The notes beneath the pieces are model-generated. The model made no database searches, was not told the DNA's origin, and saw only the letters and a list, made by a program, of their open reading frames with translations. From Caedibacter sp. 38-128 (lineage in GTDB: Bacteria > Pseudomonadota > Alphaproteobacteria > Caedimonadales > Caedimonadaceae): a stretch of 32,192 nt of DNA. The stretch spans positions 1 through 32,192 of the forward strand of contig MKUU01000005.1 in the NCBI GenBank assembly GCA_001898705.1. The letters run 5' to 3'. A program made the position numbers and the translations under genes. Of this stretch, positions 1 through 32,192 are shown piece after piece (position 1 is the stretch's first letter; each line of letters opens with the position of its first letter).

Positions 1-103
1 GACCATCTACTAATAGGCTATCATATCAAGATACAAAATTCAAGAAAATTCGTCACAAATATCAAAAAATAATCTTTTAATATCAATAATTTAAAAAATA
101 TTT

Positions 104-31141: not shown

Positions 31142-31717
31142 ATGACATCTCAACGCAATAAGCGCACAGTTCTCTTTCTTTTAATCCTACTTTTTGTCAT
31201 GACAGTTCTTTCTTTCGCGTCAGTTCCTCTTTATCGTCTCTTTTGCCAGAAAACAGGGTATGGAGGGACGCCTCGAATCGCCTTAAAGGGAGCCGATCAC
31301 ATTATTGAACATTCTTTAACGATTCACTTTAATGCCGATATGAATACGTCTCTTCCTTGGAAATTTATACCATTGCAGCCAAAAATAACGGTAAAAGCTG
31401 GTGCTTTGGGATTGGCTTATTATAAGGTGCATAACACGTCAGATGTTCCGCTTCTCGGCATTGCAATCTATAATGTGACACCTGATAAAGCAGCCCCTTA
31501 TTTTAATAAGATTGAATGTTTTTGTTTTGAAGAGCAACGACTTGAACCGCATCAGACGCTTGAACTTCCGGTTCAGTTTTATATTGATCCTAAAATTGCT
31601 GAAGACCCTCATTGCAAAGACCTGACCTCTATCACCCTTTCTTATACATTTTTCGAAGCAAAAGATCCTAAGTTGCCTGAAATTTTAGGGTTGCCGAGCC
31701 TTAAGAAAAAGCAGTGA
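31142..31717 (+). CDS. ctaG: Cytochrome c oxidase assembly protein CtaG (Cox11)
   Basis: The 191-residue copper chaperone is anchored by one N-terminal helix, with its globular domain in the periplasm, and delivers Cu(I) to the CuB site of CoxA. Copper cysteines are visible: C35 in YRLFCQKTGYGGTP just after the helix, and C126/C128 in KIECFCFEEQ. The ELPVQFYIDP block is typical. It starts directly at the end of coxF. In many alphaproteobacteria coxC (subunit III) follows; here the next 475 nt hold no ORF. Confidence 0.95.
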   Translation: MTSQRNKRTVLFLLILLFVMTVLSFASVPLYRLFCQKTGYGGTPRIALKGADHIIEHSLTIHFNADMNTSLPWKFIPLQPKITVKAGALGLAYYKVHNTSDVPLLGIAIYNVTPDKAAPYFNKIECFCFEEQRLEPHQTLELPVQFYIDPKIAEDPHCKDLTSITLSYTFFEAKDPKLPEILGLPSLKKKQ

Positions 31718-31763
31718 GAATGTCGAATTTTCTTAAATTTTTTCATTTTTGTACTGAATTTTC

Positions 31764-31792
31764 TTGAAATTTGTATCTGTATATGGTAGCCT
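31764..31792 (+). promoter_or_regulatory. Promoter candidate for the structured RNA
   Basis: TTGAAA (31764-31769) is followed after 17 nt by TAGCCT (31787-31792), placing a transcription start near 31799, just before the hairpin-rich region and 80 nt after the ctaG stop. Confidence 0.45.
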
Positions 31793-31799
31793 AGTAGTA

Positions 31800-32192
31800 A
31801 ATGGTCAGAAATGATTCCTTCTTATGAAAAGAAGACCTCTTTTCATAAACCCTTTAGCCAGTTTCTGTTGCCCTCTAAAGAAAAAAGAATAATAAAGCAG
31901 GGATAAAAACCTAAATTATTCAAGTTATAAGCCTTTTAACGCTCTTTTTGAGCGAATGCCTTCTCTTTGCCTGATGGAAAGGGGAAAGAAGGGAGGCATC
32001 GAAGGGCAATAGGCAACCTGGTGATGCAACTAGGTGCTTAAAAGGATCTCAGCCTACGTGAAAGGTAGGGTGAGGAGAAAAGCCAAAAAGCAAGAGGAAT
32101 AGCTTTCTTTTCAAGAAATATCTCTGATCTTTGTATCAAGGAGTCTTGGAAGGAAAAAAAGCCGAGGAATCTCAAAATTGAGACGAGGCCTT
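31800..32192 (+). ncRNA. Candidate structured non-coding RNA, type unknown, runs off the window
   Basis: The region lacks an ORF but can form an ordered series of stems. These are: 31822-31832 with 31838-31848 (11 bp perfect); 31940-31944 with 31950-31954 (5 bp, T loop); 31956-31968 with 31985-31999 (long, imperfect); 32016-32022 with 32029-32035 (7 bp, loop GATGCA); and 32048-32057 with 32065-32074 (9 bp around a G-G mismatch, loop GTGAAAG). TTGCCC at 31868-31873 can also pair with GGGCAA at 32004-32009. I cannot match it to RNase P RNA, SRP RNA, tmRNA or a riboswitch from memory. Group II intron 5' region, retron RNA, or a long 5' leader are open options. Confidence 0.45.

Follow-up and report, generated by a model that had tools for sequence, protein, structure and literature searches.

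The sequence downstream of ctaG in Caedibacter sp. 38-128 is not an RNA specific to ctaG but belongs to an element that occurs in copies dispersed through the genome. Each copy has an A+T-rich upstream region, followed by a promoter and then by an RNA of ca. 200 nt with five stems; the core shared by the copies spans about 31758-31998 in the window, by which we mean the whole analysed stretch of 32,192 nucleotides. The window ends at an assembly break, and the first-pass annotation therefore saw a single copy of something repeated. Its reading as a single RNA gives way to a multicopy unit of promoter and leader present in three genomes. No account of this unit was found in the open-access literature, and it looks like an undescribed, genus-restricted cassette. 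Judging from sequence comparison, we think it somewhat more probable than the other readings together that the element is a duplicated promoter with a structured 5' leader acting in cis.

The genus sample comprises three genomes, namely the window's own (G000, 1.96 Mb in 67 contigs) and two relatives (G001 and G002), one of the three being Caedibacter sp. 37-49. A sequence search with positions 31600-32192 returned 25 matches in G000, further copies in the relatives, and zero matches in 54 other genomes. Two covariance models, R1 and R2, cover 31787..31957 (+ strand) and score the window copy at 152.1 bits (E 7.8e-28), a score that includes itself, as this copy is one of the 17 seed sequences. 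Copies found by these models number 19, 20, and 14 across the genus sample. The models gave nothing in a further seven genomes from the order, including one from the same family, and nothing in 189 other members of the class, which were searched with stricter filters. A conserved 32-mer compared with the genome collection had Caedibacter sp. 37-49 as its sole match, and searches of phage, plasmid, and viral-contig collections gave no match. Counts of the promoter block suggest ca. 20-25 copies per genome. The window itself holds a second, truncated copy on the - strand at 1..70 (84% identity over 70 nt), which contains the promoter and the start of the first stem and reads off the contig; the IHF-like sequence TAAATTATTGATA lies just upstream of it, at ca. 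80-95. Both ends of the window contig thus fall inside copies, as do many other contig ends in these genomes, and the assembly breaks are explained by the element. Another feature of the assembly is a locus of G000 (L077, C53:2177-4105) that matches SSU rRNA and whose start resembles a eukaryotic 18S gene; it is probably host DNA.

The promoter proposed in the first-pass annotation, TTGAAA and TAGCCT separated by 17 nt, is kept across an alignment of 34 copies. The -35 hexamer (31764..31769, + strand) belongs to the conserved block TTTCTTGAWWTTTGTATC and its TTGA is nearly invariant, and T1, A2, and T6 of the -10 hexamer (31787..31792, + strand) are invariant. Transcription would be expected to start at about 31798-31800. 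By eye, the -10 box does not fit an RpoH-type promoter. Allowing up to two mismatches, we counted 29, 23, and 25 sites for this 18-nt block in the three genomes, compared with two sites each for reversed-pattern controls. All mismatch-free sites are within copies or close to contig ends, and the block belongs almost exclusively to the copies. In 18 of 48 copies, the IHF consensus YAANNNNTTGATW, where IHF may bind, has its first base at exactly the same distance from the -10 box, 74 nt upstream; it is found anywhere within 160 nt in 21 of the 48, against 20 of 1600 background windows. The window copy has no consensus IHF site.

As had been claimed, no + strand ORF of at least 40 aa follows ctaG, and the - strand has only one ORF, of 45 aa. 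Positions 31792-32192 fold at -122.1 kcal/mol (z = -4.05), and none of 100 shuffled sequences folds equally well. The same stems recur when each copy is folded singly. All five are on the + strand. P1 (31798-31811 paired with 31862-31867 and 31870-31877) begins at the expected +1, has a pyrimidine-rich internal loop, and is seen both in the single-copy folds and as covariation helices 1 and 2. At its tip is the apical hairpin P2 (31822-31830 with 31840-31848), the helix with the strongest covariation support, in which eight of nine pairs show double changes. P3 (31891..31920) has an outer AATAA/TTATT helix (31891-31895 with 31916-31920) and an inner AGG/CCT helix (31899-31901 with 31910-31912), both supported by covariation; all eight of its pairs have double changes, in few cells each. 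The P4 hairpin, CGCTC-TTTTT-GAGCG (31940..31954), is paired in 98% of cells and doubly changed at two pairs. P5 (31958..31998) recurs in the single-copy folds; its 5' strand GCCTTCTCTTTGCCT is kept while its 3' strand varies among copies. The proposal of at least five stems is therefore borne out by covariation over 50 copies for P1-P4 and by single-copy folds for P5.

In an alignment of the 50 copies (A4), 29 of 36 pairs are doubly changed, with 183 doubly changed cells compared with 55±9 after shuffling and 20-57 for structures slid along the alignment; the covariation score is 0.329, while shuffling gives 0.159 and sliding no more than 0.096. A4 was aligned by covariance model and is hence biased towards the structure. 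A MAFFT alignment of 17 copies (A2), which was not fitted to the structure, agrees, with 28 double-change cells compared with 10.8 shuffled. RNAalifold on a raw MAFFT alignment of 34 copies recovered P4 only, and the single-copy folds and the covariance model were needed for the other stems. Covariation and conservation in relatives, on which the suggestion of selection on RNA structure had been made to depend, are thus both present, and together with the conservation of the promoter they indicate selection. The suggested long-range pairing of 31868-31873 with 32004-32009 (TTGCCC/GGGCAA) is complementary, yet it clashes with the conserved P1: its first strand overlaps the 3' strand of P1 and its partner lies outside the shared core, which leaves it unsupported.

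We then inspected the locus in the three genomes. The upstream neighbour at 31142..31717 (+ strand) is ctaG as assigned in the first pass, where coxC had been expected to come next. It is indeed not the next gene, but the RNA does not stand in for it, since coxC of G000 is located elsewhere (C60:39143-39901) and hppA follows instead. In G001, hppA is the gene that comes after the ctaG-linked copy; it encodes an H+-pyrophosphatase (PF03030 by profile). In G000, hppA sits at one end of contig C44, and this contig end aligns to G001 from ca. 105 nt past the last base of the window; hence the order ctaG-copy-hppA also applies to G000, with a short gap. In G002, a copy precedes hppA as well, but the upstream neighbour is different. 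The 3' part of the leader (31999..32192, + strand) is copy-specific. Between 32012 and 32192 it shares 92% identity with the corresponding locus of G001, compared with 85% for both ctaG and cox1, and it may therefore be under a constraint of its own, being closer than the neighbouring genes. This part closes with a hairpin; in G001 a T-run comes after this hairpin, making a possible intrinsic terminator between the copy and hppA.

The genes behind the copies are biased in orientation. Of 38 copies, classified by hand, 30 have their nearest downstream gene of at least 150 aa on the same strand (binomial p 2e-4). Orthologous copies in this count lack independence, and with each locus taken once it becomes about 20 of 26. 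In the eight copies with an opposite-facing gene, several have a small ORF in between. Upstream neighbours are unbiased (24/49 versus 25/49). Most downstream genes were named by reading the sequence rather than by profile search. They include translation genes (rpsL-rpsG-fusA, gatCAB, glyQS, and rimP-nusA), metabolic genes (eno, acs, malic enzyme, and NAD-glutamate dehydrogenase), a yfgM-like/bamB/der cluster, and genes of secreted proteins. Profiles confirmed a phage portal (PF04860) and a capsid (PF05065), and PHROGs a head protease. At three loci (L054, L120, and L121) these phage genes lie behind a distinct subfamily of the element, and they are possibly those of a gene transfer agent. A reverse transcriptase, suggested earlier as a gene to look for, is not among the downstream genes examined.

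The copies also precede small proteins. A search with the small protein at L040 gave a family of 13 members in the three genomes, the query included, which we call FNRWWDL. A copy precedes all 11 members that have enough upstream sequence, and the other two are near contig starts. Variation in the FNRWWDL block is 0.33 at third codon positions and 0.14 and 0.07 at the others, so that these look like real proteins; a Pfam search of them gave no credible family. The HRRN protein occurs once per genome, behind a copy every time. Reading frames were also noted within the leaders and spacers. At L041, L028, L057, and L062, an open frame from the leader runs stop-free into the downstream gene as a long N-terminal extension, with a Shine-Dalgarno-like AACAGGRRG of its own at all of these except L057. 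Spacers downstream of copies (for example at L056, L058, and L063) contain many short palindromic repeats resembling GTCATCCTCGCGAAAGCGGGGATCCAG and GGCAACCTGNNGATG, some of which are read through in small ORFs as ...EILGTRPRMT....

In the cis-acting reading, the promoter, often with an IHF-like site ca. 70 nt before the -10 box, would drive the conserved five-stem leader from +1, and the transcript would run through a variable spacer into the downstream open frame. Its targets would be housekeeping genes or operons, phage capsid or portal genes, and genes for secreted proteins or for small proteins of the FNRWWDL or HRRN type, all of which the 20-25 copies would bring under common control. 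For the 5'-terminal stem we put forward, weakly, that it most likely serves to stabilise or license the long leader. Transcription, read-through, IHF binding, and action of the leader in cis are inferred here.

The copies could instead be a family of independent trans-acting sRNAs, each copy being its own gene, that would act by base-pairing of their pyrimidine-rich strands, UUCUUUCA and CCCUCUCUUUGCC, to the purine-rich ribosome-binding sites on target mRNAs. We regard this as a serious but doubtful alternative. A conserved promoter of their own, a compact covarying fold, and conserved C/U-rich strands, including the 5' strand of P5 whose partner varies, would all suit sRNAs, as would the possible terminator in the hppA copy of G001. 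By eye, rpsL, glyQ, rimP, and hppA appear to have their own promoters near the start, and such housekeeping genes need not depend on the element. However, sRNA genes would not be expected to show the orientation bias or the exclusive linkage to small ORFs, and the copies share no intrinsic terminator in a constant position; few intrinsic terminators were found in the stretch from copy to ORF, one candidate being in L025. The bias, the FNRWWDL/HRRN linkage, and the rarity of such terminators lead us to favour a leader over independent sRNAs.

The downstream genes are common to species while the copy sequences are not: hppA is behind a copy in all three species, and acs, gdh, malic enzyme, glyQ, and rimP are each behind one in two. 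A tree of the 50 copies tracks the genome, with 14 label changes compared with a shuffled mean of 23.8 and a minimum of 17. For loci present in more than one species, it ignores the locus (20 changes versus 20.4 shuffled). The copies at the phage portal, capsid, and head protease genes form their own branch, and the window copy is 96% identical to the copy on C63, a pair whose closeness points to recent duplication or conversion. As the addresses are shared and the copies group by genome, concerted evolution has probably made the copies within a genome alike; independent insertions at the same places are less likely. A tentative extension, for which our confidence is low, is a genus-specific regulon in which promoter and leader are copied and homogenised as a unit at fixed addresses. 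The RNA would then act on the transcribing polymerase or on the mRNA, by antitermination or stabilisation, and would thereby let long untranslated leaders reach orphan small-protein, phage-shell, and growth genes.

The dispersal of the copies, their grouping by genome, and the near-identical window/C63 pair would also be produced by a non-autonomous mobile or selfish repeat, comparable with MITEs, whose promoter would be incidental and which would do nothing for its host. We consider such a repeat unlikely, because covariation and promoter conservation imply selection, the downstream bias is strong, and occupied loci are common to several species. Moreover, the copies share no terminal inverted or direct repeats: their own flank pairs equal mismatched controls, and the longest inverted match between flanks averages 6.85 nt, compared with 6.80 nt in the controls. 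It is improbable that the element is a riboswitch regulon that senses a metabolite, or that it falls into a known leader class such as the T-box. One structured leader does stand ahead of many unlinked genes, glyQ and gatCAB among them, but the other downstream genes do not fit a T-box, and no pathway is common to them; nor is a riboswitch expected to be duplicated along with its promoter and upstream region. The element had matched no known RNA by eye, and Rfam agrees: at the gathering score, only two tRNAs were found in the window, and at a permissive E-value, three other copies gave nothing credible up to E 5. An origin as a copied rRNA-operon promoter and leader with boxA antitermination is scarcely credible: GCTCTTT in P4 resembles boxA and long untranslated spacers would call for antitermination, but the GCTC is paired within P4, and the rrn upstream region of G000 carries an unrelated promoter and lacks any such sequence.

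It is seldom seen in bacteria that one promoter with a long folded leader recurs some 20 times. If the element acts in cis, it would show that copying a single cassette can both build a whole regulon and keep it uniform, and it would offer a way into the otherwise unannotated small proteins of these Caedibacter-like endosymbionts, which are intracellular bacteria.

Among known systems, riboswitch and T-box families likewise place a conserved 5' leader ahead of many unlinked genes, but here the repeated unit extends to the promoter and upstream region, matches no Rfam family, and serves no common pathway. Multicopy sRNA families with pyrimidine-rich conserved strands are known in bacteria; the element resembles them in having several paralogous structured RNAs with such strands and differs in its linkage to downstream ORFs and in having no discrete terminator at a constant position. 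Intergenic repeats that are maintained in a genome also include the REPIN/REP type and mobile promoters; the element is much longer than these and has a covarying multi-stem RNA and a promoter. The Correia repeat enclosed elements (CREE) of Neisseria are ca. 70-157 bp long with inverted-repeat ends and occur in more than 120 copies (PMC2649163). They are dispersed near genes, can supply a promoter, and have positions largely conserved between strains; some copies carry an IHF site, and the transcript contains an RNA stem (PMC2649163). In contrast to CREE, the element has no terminal inverted repeats and only ca. 20-25 copies, its promoter lies wholly inside it, and its five-stem leader exceeds a whole CREE in length. 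Like CREE, it is dispersed near genes and has RNA stems, a predicted promoter, and, in the 18 of 48 copies, the IHF consensus. Although it fails the inverted-repeat test, the element is closest in spirit to the Correia elements.
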